From contig OY282382.1 in assembly GCA_958295905.1 (NCBI GenBank), forward strand, positions 1,140,001 to 1,204,000: 64,000 nucleotides of DNA, read 5' to 3'. The notes beneath the pieces were generated by a model. The model ran no database searches, was not told the origin of the DNA, and was given only the letters and a program-made list of their open reading frames with translations. This DNA comes from an uncultured Vicinamibacterales bacterium. GTDB taxonomy: Bacteria; Acidobacteriota; Vicinamibacteria; Vicinamibacterales; UBA8438. Below, piece after piece: positions 8,542 to 62,864 of the stretch (within the stretch, counting starts at the first letter, position 1; each line of letters opens with the position of its first letter). The position numbers and the translations under genes are program-made.

Positions 8542-8804
8542 CAACCCGTGGCTGACCCCGCGTCGCCCCGCGGGCGGCGAGGGCGGCATCGGGCCGGAGA
8601 GCGCCCGCGGGCAAAAGAACGTCCGTGCCTGACGAGGCGTGAGTAGGGCGCGCCGGTTGCGGTGAAACAGGCCCCGACGTTTCGTGGCGTTGGGGGTGAT
8701 CGGCGTTCCGATCATGACGGTTTGGGCATAGGTCACCGACGAACGACGCAGTCAGGCGGGATGCATCGCCGCTCGAATGCAGCGGGGACTTTCGCCACGG
8801 GCTG
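8542..8804 (-). mobile_element. RPT-A copy 2, MITE-like element (263 bp, reversed)
   Basis: Read on the minus strand it begins CAGCCCGTGGCGAAAG and ends CAGCCACGGGTTG, with the full RPT-A interior, making it the longest copy here. It fills almost the whole gap between glcD and glcE and leaves the AGGAGG ribosome-binding site of glcE intact just beyond its right end. Confidence 0.8.
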
Positions 8805-10560: not shown

Positions 10561-10860
10561 TACGGCGCACCAGTCCACCCCGCCTGGGGTCGGCGCCGTT
10601 GCGGGGGTGCCGACCCCGTGTCGACCCCCGGCCGCCCATCTATTCCATGCCCCCCGGCCAGTCCGGCGATTCTCGTCCGCCTGGGCGGGCTCGCGCGGCA
10701 GTCGCCTCAGAATCGCCACCCCGCACCCCAGTCGCGGCTCGGGTGGAATGGGGCCCAGCAAGCCCGCGCGCACGATGCCCCTCCGGCCGACCATGAAGTC
10801 GAACGTCAGGCCGACGTGGATCGCGGCCGAATGGTTGCACCGGGGGCCCAAATGCAGGAC

Positions 10861-11021
10861 CATCCCACGCTCCGCCACCGCCGTGCGCAGGCAGAATCGT
10901 GGCGGGTCCTGGGGTTCCGGACGTGCGAAATCGTGGGTCTCACGCGGCGCCGACCGGTCGGCAAGACGGTGGCGACCCCTCGAATCGGGGGCGAGCCGTC
11001 ACGCGCAGTCAGCGTGGGATG
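10861..11021 (+). mobile_element. RPT-B copy 1 (161 bp core)
   Basis: The core runs from CATCCCACGCT to AGCGTGGGATG, an 11-bp inverted repeat that extends outward as AGGAC at the left and CTCCT at the right. Internal landmarks shared by all copies are GCCACCGCCGT, AATCGTGGCGGGTCC, GGTCGGCAAGACGGTGGCG and CCCCTCGAATCGGGGG. Five other copies lie in this window. Confidence 0.8.
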
Positions 11022-11060
11022 CTCCTCGGTGTGCTTGGATGTCCCCGCGAGCCCGACGCT

Positions 11061-11097
11061 GGCGAGCCGTCACGCGCAGTCAGCGTGGGATGCTCCT
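11061..11097 (+). repeat. partial duplicate of the RPT-B right end
   Basis: The last 37 bases of RPT-B (the block GAGCCGTCACGCGCAGTCA and then GCGTGGGATGCTCCT) occur a second time 71 bases after their first occurrence. This looks like a local duplication or a solo end left by a second element. Confidence 0.7.
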
Positions 11098-11284
11098 GGC
11101 CCAAATGCGCCGCCCTCGACTCGTTTGAGGAGATTTGCACTTTCACGGTAACCAAGGACACCGATCGATATCAAGTTGTCAACTGCACCCCAGCGCCGCC
11201 CGTTGTCTGCGGGGTTGGCGCGCGTGGCGCACGGCAAGGTAATTTCCGTCGGCGGCCTGAGCGGCGGCCGGATCGGGCGCCGGT

Positions 11285-15402: not shown

Positions 15403-15448
15403 CGCCGCGGAACGGTGGCGCCGACGACCCCGCCCTTTCATCCCGGAT

Positions 15449-15598
15449 CATCCCACGCTCCGCCACCGCCGCATCGTGGCGGGTCCTGGGGCTTCGGACG
15501 TGCGGAATCGTGGGTCTCACGCGGTCCCGGCCGGTCGGCAAGACGGTGGCGACCCCTCGAATCGGGGGCGGGCCGTCACGCGCAGTCAGCGTGGGATG
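15449..15598 (+). mobile_element. RPT-B copy 2 (150 bp core)
   Basis: It runs from CATCCCACGCTC to AGCGTGGGATG with the shared RPT-B interior but lacks about 10 internal bases after GCCACCGCC. It lies between the FGE-fold gene and the Tat-signal ThDP gene and is open in the frame of the latter, which could mislead start prediction. Confidence 0.8.
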
Positions 15599-15703
15599 CT
15601 CCTGGCCCTTCATCCCGCGGGTCTTGCGCCGGCCGGGGCGGGCGTGCCATTCTTCTGGGGAGATCGGGCACCGCTGACGGGGAACTCAACCCAGGAGCGA
15701 ACG

Positions 15704-17741: not shown

Positions 17742-17758
17742 CCGCCAGCGTCCCCGCT

Positions 17759-17849
17759 CATGACGGTTCGGGCATCGGTAGCCGACGAACAACGCAGTCA
17801 GGCGGGATGCATCGCCGCTCGAAGGCAGCGGGGACTTTCGCCACGGCTG
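17759..17849 (-). repeat. RPT-A fragment (left third, reversed)
   Basis: Read on the minus strand this is CAGCCGTGGCGAAAGTCC and on through GCGATGCATCCCGCCTGAC to CCGTCATGA, matching the left 90 bases of RPT-A. The rest of the element is absent. It abuts RPT-C copy 2, so this gap is a nest of two repeat families. Confidence 0.7.
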
Positions 17850-25362: not shown

Positions 25363-25544
25363 CAGCCCGTGGCGAAGTCCCCGCCGCCTTCGAGCGGCGA
25401 TCATCCCGCCTGACGGTGTTGTTCGTCGGTTACCTGCGCCCGATAGGCGCCCTCCTCACGCCTTGTCAGGCCCGGGTGTTCCTTGCCCGCGGGCGCGCTG
25501 GCGCCCCGCCGCTCCCGGTGCGACGCGGGGGTTCACCACGGGCC
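25363..25544 (+). mobile_element. RPT-A copy 3 (182 bp, internally deleted)
   Basis: It begins CAGCCCGTGGCGAAGTCC and ends GTTCACCACGGGCCG. The left and right blocks match the full-length copies but about 70 internal bases (from the CGTCATGATCGG block onward) are missing. It starts 42 nt behind the queA stop codon. Confidence 0.75.
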
Positions 25545-33450: not shown

Positions 33451-33475
33451 ACCCCGTCTGCGCCGTCTGCAGGAG

Positions 33476-33637
33476 CATCCCACGCTGACTGCGCGTGACG
33501 GCCCGCCCCGATTCGAGGGGTCGCCACCGTCTTGCCGACCGGCCGGCGCCGCGTGAGACCACGATTCCGCACGTCCGGAGCCCCGGCAGGACCCGCCGCG
33601 ATTCCGCCTGCGCACGGCGGTGGCGGAGCAAGGGATG
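33476..33637 (-). mobile_element. RPT-B copy 3 (162 bp, reversed, one end decayed)
   Basis: Starts CATCCCACGCTGACTGCG and runs through the reversed RPT-B interior. The far end reads GCGGAGCAAGGGATG instead of GCGGAGCGTGGGATG, so that end carries point changes. The glmM-to-TPR gap (33215-33709) holds RPT-D, this element and a TATGAT at 33671-33676 that could be a -10 box for the TPR gene. Confidence 0.8.
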
Positions 33638-33709
33638 CGCCTGAGCGCCCGGCGCTCCGGCGCATTGCTATATGATCGGTGAGTCGCGGTGGTTGGCCCG
33701 GACAGTCCG

Positions 33710-34309: not shown

Positions 34310-34340
34310 CGCGTTCGCGGAATCGTCCCCTGGGATTGTT

Positions 34341-34809
34341 GGAGGGCTGGTTGGGCGGTAATCGGAGCTTCGAGGTGCCGGTTTCCGGGGGAAGTCGTCG
34401 GTGCCGTGTAACGGCGCGGACGGCTGGAGGGCTGGTTGGGCGGTAATCGGAGCTTCGAGGTGCCGGTTTCCGGGGAAGTCGTCGGTGCCGTGTAACGGCG
34501 CGGACGGCTGGAGGGCTGGTTGGGCGGTAATCGGAGCTTCGAGGCGCCGGTTCCGGGGAAGTCGTCGGTGCCGTGTAACGGCGCGGACGGCTGGAGGATT
34601 GGTTGGGCGGTAATCGGAGCTTCGAGGCGCCGGTTCCGGGGAAGTCGTCGGTGCCGTGTAACGGCGCGGACGGCTGGAGGGTTGGTTGGGCGGGAAGCGG
34701 AGCTTCGAGGCTCCGATTTCCGGGGGAAGTCGTCGGTGCCGTGTAACGGCGCGGACGGCTGGAGGGTTGGTTGGGCGGGAAGCGGAGCCGCAAGGCTCCG
34801 ATTTCCGGG
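34341..34809 (+). repeat. RPT-E tandem array, six units of 83-85 bp
   Basis: Units begin with GGAGG at 34341, 34426, 34510, 34593, 34676 and 34761; the last is cut at about 49 bp. Each holds GGTTGGGCGG, a small inverted repeat around CGGAGC and, apart from the last, GTCGTCGGTG with GCCGTGTAACGGC. The last unit forms a perfect hairpin CGGAGCC-GCAA-GGCTCCG. Neighbouring units differ by a few substitutions. No spacers separate them, so it is not a CRISPR array. Single units occur elsewhere in the window. Confidence 0.9.
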
Positions 34810-50460: not shown

Positions 50461-50618
50461 CAGCCCGCGGCGAAAGTCCCCGCTGCCGTTCAAGCGGCGA
50501 TGCATCCCGCCTGATCGCGTTGTTCGTCGGTTGCCTATGCCCAATATACGCCCTCCTCACGCCTTGTCAGGCGGGCGCCTCGCCGCTCTCTGTGCGACGC
50601 GGGTTTCGCCACGGGCTG
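50461..50618 (+). mobile_element. RPT-A copy 4 (158 bp, short form)
   Basis: It begins CAGCCCGCGGCGAAAG and ends TTTCGCCACGGGCTG. It lacks the central block of the long copies, like copy 3, but both ends are intact. It lies 56 bp upstream of the start codon of the ABC ATPase gene, in its promoter region. Confidence 0.75.
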
Positions 50619-50767
50619 TCAACCCGCGAAAAGGGGCCGGCCGCGCCGAATGATGGTGAATTAGACGCAGGGCCCAGGAGAAAAGACGTCGAGCCAGCCC
50701 GGGATGCGGAGAATATTGTAGTGTCCGGTCCGCCCGTTCGCAACCGGCTTCCTGCCGGTCCCAGGGG

Positions 50768-50928
50768 CATCCCACGCTGACGGCGCGTGACGGCCCGCCC
50801 CCGATTCGAGGGGTCGCCACCGTCTTGCCGACCGGCCGGCGCCGCGGGAACCCACGATTCCGCACGTCCGGAGCCCCAGGACCCGCCACGATTCCGCCTG
50901 CAGCACGGCGGTGGCGGAGCGTGGGATG
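50768..50928 (-). mobile_element. RPT-B copy 4 (161 bp core, reversed)
   Basis: It begins CATCCCACGCTGACGGCG and ends GCGGAGCGTGGGATG, with the full shared interior. It lies in the 631-bp gap (50405-51035) between the ABC locus and the REC-PilZ gene, which otherwise holds RPT-A copy 4 and no gene. Confidence 0.8.
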
Positions 50929-51035
50929 GTCTGTGCGGTCCGGGCTCCCCCGCCCGCGATCGCCGCCTTGCGGATCCGCCGCCGCCCGGCCAACCCGCCG
51001 GGAGCGGGCGGCTCCTGCATGGAGGCGGCGGCGTT

Positions 51036-61301: not shown

Positions 61302-61494
61302 GTTCTGACCGGCCGGTTCCGGGCGGATCGTCGCGGGCGGGATCGCCCGGAACGTGAGCCGGTCGGGGACGCCGGCGGCCGCCGCCCAACCGTCGCCGGG
61401 AGGGATATGTTGCCTCGGTTACCGAGTCTTCAACGTAGCACGGCGCCCCCCGGCAGACAAGGGGGCGCGAGCCTTGGGCAGGACCATCCCACGC

Positions 61495-61642
61495 TCTGCC
61501 ACCGCCGTGCGCAGGCGGCATCGTGGCGGGTCCTGGGGCTCCGGACGGGCGGCATCGTGGCTCACGCGGGCCGGCCGGTCGGCAAGACGGTGGCGACCCC
61601 TCGAATCGGGGGCGGGCCGTCACGCGCAGTCAGCGTGGGATG
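61495..61642 (+). mobile_element. RPT-B copy 5 (148 bp core)
   Basis: It begins CATCCCACGCTCTGCC and ends AGCGTGGGATG, flanked by AGGAC at the left and CTCCG at the right. The interior matches the other copies with small deletions. It lies 195 bp upstream of truA, and RPT-B copy 6 follows behind truA in opposite orientation, so truA is bracketed by two inverted copies. Confidence 0.8.
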
Positions 61643-61836
61643 CTCCGGAGCCTTGGGGAGCCCTGGGGCGAAGCCGGCCGCCGGGGCGCCGGCCGGGCCG
61701 GGCCGGGAAGGCGGCGGAGCCGCGGTTGTATACTTCGAAGAAAACCGCGGCGCTCCGTGCCGAGCGCGCTACCCCCGATGCGCCCGCGGCGAGCCGGTCA
61801 CCGGCCCCGGCCCGCGCCCGCCGTCACCATCCCGTG

Positions 61837-62607
61837 ATGCGCACGTTCAAGCTCACCGTGGCCTACGACGGCACGGCGTACGTGGGCTGGCAGCGCCAGG
61901 CGGCGGGGGTGTCGATTCAGGGATGTCTCGAGGCGGCGCTGGGCGACCTCGCGGGGGCCCGGGTCGCCGTCGTCGGCGCGGGGCGGACCGACGCCGGCGT
62001 CCATGCCCTCGGACAGGTGGCGGGCGTCCGCCTCGACCTGCGCATCGATCCGGCGGCGCTGGCCCGCGCGGTGAACGCGCGGCTGCCCGAGGACGTTCGC
62101 GTCGTCGACAGCGCGGTGGCCGCCGACACCTTCCACGCGCGCTTCGACGCCGTCGCCAAGTCCTACCGCTATCGCCTGCTGCACGGTCCGGTGACGAGCC
62201 CCTTCCTCCGGCGGTACGCCTGGCACGTCCGCGAGCCGATCGACGTGGAGGCGATGACCGCGGCGGGCCGGCTGCTCGTCGGCGAGCACGACTTCGCCGC
62301 GTTCCAGGCCGCCGGCAGCACGGTGCGGACCACCGTGCGCACGCTGTTCGACCTGACGGTGCGGCGGGTCCCTCCCGGCGACTGGATCGGCGCCCCCGGC
62401 GCGGACGGCACCGTCATCGATGTGCGCGGCAGCGGCTTTCTCCGCCACATGGTCCGGACCATCGTGGGGACCCTCGTCGAGGTCGGCCGGGGCCGATGGG
62501 GGCCGGCCGAGGTCGAACGGGCCTTGCGGGCCGCGGAGCGCAGCGCGGCGGGGCCGACCGCGCCGCCCCGGGGGCTGTTCCTGACCGGGGTCGGGTACCC
62601 CCGGTGA
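61837..62607 (+). CDS. truA: tRNA pseudouridine synthase A
   Basis: This 256-residue enzyme makes pseudouridine at positions 38-40 of tRNA anticodon arms. The catalytic Asp52 is in GAGRTDAGVHALGQ; LTVAYDGTAYVGWQRQ opens the protein, and YRYRLLHGPVTSPFLRRYAW and RGSGFLRHMVRTIVGTLVEV are further family blocks. The start is ATG 61837 directly behind an in-frame GTG; the long upstream frame crosses RPT-B and is not real. Confidence 0.96.
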   Translation: MRTFKLTVAYDGTAYVGWQRQAAGVSIQGCLEAALGDLAGARVAVVGAGRTDAGVHALGQVAGVRLDLRIDPAALARAVNARLPEDVRVVDSAVAADTFHARFDAVAKSYRYRLLHGPVTSPFLRRYAWHVREPIDVEAMTAAGRLLVGEHDFAAFQAAGSTVRTTVRTLFDLTVRRVPPGDWIGAPGADGTVIDVRGSGFLRHMVRTIVGTLVEVGRGRWGPAEVERALRAAERSAAGPTAPPRGLFLTGVGYPR

Positions 62608-62679
62608 CGGCGGCCCGGCCGGCGCGGGTGCGAGGTGCGGGACACTGTGCCGCCCCTCCGGCCGCCTCCGGTCCAGGAG

Positions 62680-62840
62680 CATCCCACGCTGACTGCGCGT
62701 GACGGCCCGCCCCCGATTCGAGGGGTCGCCACCGTCTTGCCGGCGGGCCGGCGCCGCGTGAGACCCACGATTCCGCCCGTCCGGAGCCCCAGGACCCGCC
62801 ACGATTCCGCCTGCGCACGGCGGTGGCGGAGCGTGGGATG
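62680..62840 (-). mobile_element. RPT-B copy 6 (161 bp core, reversed)
   Basis: It begins CATCCCACGCTGACTGCG and ends GCGGAGCGTGGGATG, flanked by AGGAG and GTCCT, so the inverted ends extend to 16 bp with one mismatch. It lies between truA and uppS, and the promoter of uppS starts 25 bp after it. Confidence 0.82.
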
Positions 62841-62864
62841 GTCCTGCCTCCGGTCCAGGGGCGC

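Follow-up and report, generated by a model that had tools for sequence, protein, structure and literature searches.

RPT-B is a real family of transposable elements, MITEs, of which one Acidobacteria genome contains about 250-300. Comparison of its ends and target sites with those of known elements indicates that this 173-bp MITE with 17-bp terminal inverted repeats (TIRs) was very probably moved in trans by a transposase that an ISAs1-family insertion sequence (IS) supplied. RPT-B is ordinary in kind, new as a family and most likely ISAs1-derived; the unusual part is what was inserted into some of its copies.

The window, i.e. the whole stretch of 64,000 nucleotides that was analysed, corresponds to C1:1140001-1204000 in an Acidobacteriota genome of 6.3 Mb in three contigs. 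The first-pass annotation had described six RPT-B copies there, three per strand and devoid of a transposase, and all six were found in the window, in this orientation and with no transposase within them. Their locations were right, whereas the limits given were not: the true ends read CAGG...CCTG and the copies are slightly longer. The inverted end that had been proposed is also real, although it measures 17 bp with two mismatches (CAGGRGCATCCCACGCT vs CAGGACCATCCCACGCT) instead of 16 bp with one. The six copies are:

Copy 1, 10855..11098, minus strand: 244 bp including a 71-bp internal insertion; an exact 9-bp target-site duplication (TSD), CATTTGGGC, brackets all 244 bp.
Copy 2, 15443..15604, minus strand: 162 bp with a small deletion in its interior; the 10-bp duplication is imperfect (gatgaagggc / gatgaaagggc).
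Copy 3, 33470..33643, plus strand: right end degraded; duplication not recognisable.
Copy 4, 50762..50934, plus strand: imperfect duplication; element absent at the orthologous site in congeners G001 and G002.
Copy 5, 61479..61648, minus strand: 170 bp, upstream of truA; exact 9-bp TSD, CCCAAGGCT.
Copy 6, 62674..62846, plus strand: 173 bp, the reference copy; exact 9-bp TSD, CCTCCGGTC.

Copy 1 had been drawn too short, a second left end lying at 11061-11098. Copy 6 separates truA from a predicted gene for undecaprenyl diphosphate synthase, and the element sequence is absent at the orthologous site in G001. A second intergenic repeat of mosaic make-up, CATCCCGCCTGAC...TTGTTCGTCGG, occurs in the window at 50461-50618, 8708-8800, 17754-17846 and 25402-25471; it is high-copy in both congeners, which lack RPT-B.

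The complete element (CAGGRGCATCCCACGCT ... AGCGTGGGATGGTCCTG) has the structure of a MITE, being short, non-coding and bounded by TIRs of 17 bp with two mismatches; the consensus left end is CAGGGGCATCCCACGCT and the right end begins with CAGGA. Genome-wide, a 26-bp pattern of the left end allowing up to three mismatches gave 294 matches, against none for the reversed control. This amounts to about one copy per 21 kb, so that the window, whose density had been called high, is about twofold denser than the genome mean. Sequence-level analyses of RPT-B cover 2.46 Mb (39% of the genome), from which the TSD and repeat-spacer-repeat counts given below are taken. The exact 18-bp RPT-B end, scanned across 396 genomes of the phylum, had 185 matches in its own genome and a single chance match, inside coding sequence, in the 395 other Acidobacteriota. 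Nothing comparable was seen among 40 relatives, and searches of plasmids and phages found none; matches labelled G350, G023 and L325 were chance hits in coding sequence or noise. Within our sample, RPT-B is confined to this species, no copy having been seen in the two congeners or among the remaining genomes of the phylum.

Copies of RPT-B have a median identity of 95.3% to the consensus and of 91.8% to each other. With that much decay, about 40% of the 9-10 bp TSD pairs would be predicted to remain intact, and 39/83 (47%) do. Since copies lie about 5% from the consensus and the intact-TSD fraction is near the decay prediction, the family looks like the product of one past burst. RPT-B has multiplied within this species, and its copies now lie outside genes. 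At C1:3731664 (L310), a 71-bp sequence is bounded left and right by RPT-B-like ends (CAGGGCCATCCCACG ... CGTGGGATGGTTCTG) but has a different interior, and is possibly another deletion derivative.

Evidence for transposition comes from 83 full-length copies taken from C1:1-2,064,000. A perfect TSD of at least 8 bp, with one base of slack, flanks 48 of them, compared with a mean of 0.9 and a maximum of 5 when the right flanks were shuffled 200 times; the other 35 have no such TSD. Exact flank matches are 9 bp long in 17 copies and 10 bp in 22, and none was found at 5-7 or 11-14 bp. For two copies, the genome also contains the target site in its empty form. At C1:1292051-1292223, the TSD GTTCGACGCC is single in the empty versions of the host, a transposase-like sequence; at C1:1500650-1500822 (TSD CTCGAAGGC), the host is another intergenic repeat. 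In addition, the regions of the congeners that align with window positions 62674 and 50762 lack the element sequence, though they are too divergent for a clean junction. The comparison of empty with filled sites that the first-pass annotation had put forward was one between strains; here, uninterrupted target copies came from the same genome, and the target duplications measure 9-10 bp. The proposal of a non-autonomous element made in that annotation is borne out by these TSDs, by the empty sites and by absence from two orthologous congener sites. Each insertion cut its target with a stagger of 9-10 bp, at GC-rich sites largely without sequence specificity, and left a TSD of 9-10 bp.

The first-pass annotation had also placed RPT-B between genes, and this holds past the window: a codon model called 0/83 sites in C1:1-2,064,000 coding, the corresponding figures being 63% for random sites and 72% for those 1-2 kb off. 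The model is crude, and what it supports is strong gene avoidance rather than zero; since the site at C1:1292051 lies in transposase-like sequence, the figure of 0/83 depends on the classifier. This intergenic placement presumably reflects purifying selection.

Two other origins had been offered for the family, a structured RNA and a binding-site repeat. The RPT-B consensus does fold as a long rod, as a structured RNA might, whether a cis-regulatory one or a repeat at the RNA level; this fold is owed to the inverted ends and barely beats shuffled sequences (z -1.73). Covariation across 77 copies is absent, with two double changes over 60 pairs against 4.3 expected from shuffled columns, and Rfam gave no match. 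Occurrence in both orientations, restriction to one species and flanking TSDs are likewise unlike an RNA repeat, and we consider an RNA origin extremely improbable. The dispersed, TSD-flanked distribution contradicts a binding-site repeat.

Nine tandem pairs of RPT-B were found, with one duplication between the members (TSD-E-TSD-E-TSD). In six of the nine, both members have at least two rare variants in common (background 0.7%), which argues that most pairs are products of a local duplication that followed insertion; for most of them, these shared private variants rule out independent insertion. Occasional tandem copies, together with high copy number, intergenic location and palindromic ends, recall the REP/BIME-type repeats moved by RAYT transposases. 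The repeats of that class are palindromes of 20-40 bp with a GTAG or CGTC tag, the tags described for REP/RAYT repeats (PMC3733652). RPT-B has no GTAG or CGTC head, is 173 bp long, and bears true 17-bp TIRs and 9-10 bp TSDs, so that a RAYT-driven origin has hardly any likelihood. One tandem pair is carried by a repeated segment of 5154 bp at C1:37007-42160 (L015), with further copies near C1:1273351, 3455360, 3486054 and 5605672. The copies of this segment share the terminal sequence GGGTGCACGTCAGATTT, and two of them have 9-bp duplications; by eye, the putative genes of the segment resemble LarB and citrate synthase.

The MITE reading leads to the question of a parent. The RPT-B end followed by A/T has nine matches, one of which, at C1:1594785, is not a MITE. 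There, the end CAGGGCCATCCCACGCT agrees with the 17-bp RPT-B end at every defined position and leads directly into the N-terminus of a transposase, with no MITE interior, so that RPT-B shares its end with a transposase-bearing element. It is a left end, the right end being lost, and the N-terminus carries a frameshift and is truncated by IS debris. Searched as pieces joined across the frameshift by XX, the remnant matches PF13808 (DDE_Tnp_1-associated) with an E value of 1.6e-7 and 31.7 bits, just under the cut-off of 32.3. A genome-wide profile search with PF13808 gave no match because this remnant is frameshifted. In plasmids, it has two annotated transposase matches, both 'ISAs1 family transposase'.

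Elements of the ISAs1 family have inverted repeats of 14-22 bp starting with CAGGG and 10-bp direct repeats (PMC11946415); an ISAs1 element of Streptosporangium has the ends CAGGGCCCCGGCGAGT and a 10-bp TSD, GTGCACGGAT. RPT-B agrees in how its ends start (CAGG(G)), in their length, 17 bp falling within this range, and in its duplication of about 10 bp (9-10 bp). It differs from ISAs1 IS and IS-derived MITEs in combining a length of 173 bp and no coding capacity with about 250-300 copies, its parent surviving as one decayed fragment. A literature search, not exhaustive, found no account of an ISAs1-derived MITE with as many copies. ERIC elements have ends and a duplication length different from those of RPT-B. 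Like ERIC-type elements and MITEAba12 (PMC6382973), RPT-B is short, non-autonomous, TIR-bearing and dispersed between genes.

The transposase with matching ends that the first-pass annotation had suggested looking for is present in part, as one decayed ISAs1 remnant with a matching left end; no intact parent was found in 39% of the genome, nor, in 2.46 Mb, any IS bounded on both sides by RPT-B ends. The ISAs1 element at C1:1594785, or a close relative, was probably the source of both the RPT-B ends and the transposase, and the burst would be over because this parent decayed. Two other candidate parents were set aside. In the region of C1:3097677 (L049), two RPT-B ends 1753 bp apart enclose a transposase, which belongs to an IS with termini GGAGTCTGCGCCGCAG that inserted into an RPT-B copy; an adjoining second copy has an insert of its own. 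The ISAs1 genes of G217 have no clear ends.

The transposase could also have come from a resident element of the IS4 family (IS4Sa-type, DUF4372 + DDE_Tnp_1). The IS4Sa subgroup has ends of the form CA------T and direct repeats of 8-10 bp (PMC2266710, Table 1), and RPT-B shows the same pattern of ends and duplications, though the pattern is loose. An intact, multi-copy IS of 1291 bp with DUF4372 and DDE_Tnp_1 does reside in this genome (ends CACTAGTGTCCCAC / CACTTCTGTCCCAC, duplications of 9-10 bp), and its end aligns with CAGGAGCATCCCAC at CA, at the T in position 9 and at the motif TCCCAC. However, it shares only 11/17 terminal bases with RPT-B, whereas the ISAs1 remnant agrees at all defined positions, and no fetched copy of it bears RPT-B-type ends. 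We thus regard mobilisation by the IS4 element as unlikely, and retain the ISAs1 family as the probable source of the transposase. RPT-B then makes a complete small story, with hundreds of fossils, readable TSDs and a likely parent down to one fragment.

The greater value of the hundreds of near-identical RPT-B copies is as a ruler: any later insertion into one of them stands out against a precisely known empty state. In copy 1, the extra 71 bp repeat 37 bp of the left end and add 34 unique bases:

Unique 34-bp 'spacer', 11027..11060, minus strand: flanked by the repeats 10990-11026 and 11061-11097; not present in any other aligned RPT-B copy.

Other long RPT-B copies follow the same plan elsewhere, with repeat/spacer lengths (bp) of 36/36 at C1:312764, 37/35 at C1:940418 and 41/33 at C1:36111. 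Copies of 245 bp could have been a subfamily with an internal duplication; the alignment shows a different spacer in each. The long copy at C1:1837591 instead has a plain internal tandem duplication. About 80 sister copies lack the insertion, which can therefore be described as gain of a spacer together with duplication of the target, and it is this exact empty reference that allowed the 36+36 repeat-spacer-repeat insertions to be recognised.

Such units are not restricted to RPT-B. In 2.46 Mb, exact direct repeats of at least 29 bp form 50 pairs at a spacing of 71-76 bp, against 9 over 54-70 bp; this peak was not seen in 730 kb of other bacteria. A strict list holds 49 repeat-spacer-repeat units, 47 of them outside coding sequence. 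Examples are:

Window 10855-11098 (copy 1); C1:155250, 212743, 312766, 397508, 640376, 711913, 940465 and 2051477; C2:37009; about 40 more: repeat-spacer-repeat units.

Nearly all units have different repeats, and a few have two spacers (C1:155250, C1:640376). Spacers are mostly 33-37 bp where the repeat is still at least 35 bp, so that repeats of constant length surround unique spacers of constant length, a geometry of CRISPR type. One of the 49 spacers has a long match elsewhere in 39% of the genome; 28 searched in phages gave no match, and neither did five spot patterns in IMG/VR. No cas genes or canonical array were seen in 39% of the genome, and a tblastn search of the same portion with Cas1/Cas2 of E. 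coli, an insensitive query, gave no match.

Off-target integration of spacers outside arrays has been described on overexpression of Cas1-Cas2 (Nivala et al. 2018, as cited in PMC11788318). The units described here resemble its products in the duplication of about 36 bp of target around about 36 bp of new sequence and, rarely, in two spacers in a row. They differ in being natural, in numbering about 50 sites in 39% of one genome, with repeats nearly all different, and in that no cas genes or array were seen there; this count would correspond to roughly 120 units in the whole genome. By analogy, RPT-B copies may have been passive targets of a second integration activity, one that would place inserts of about 36 bp almost anywhere outside genes and duplicate about 36 bp of target, as Cas1-Cas2 does. 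To this reading, massive natural non-canonical spacer integration, we give an even chance, and we report a Cas1-Cas2 origin as a candidate, not as established. If Cas1-Cas2 made these units, off-target integration would be recorded naturally in this genome, on a scale for which the only description found involves Cas1-Cas2 overexpression.

Direct repeats at a spacing of 83 bp form a second, smaller excess, and tandem arrays with a period of 83 bp occur at unlinked places (window 34333-34809; C1:157690, 813456 and 813682).
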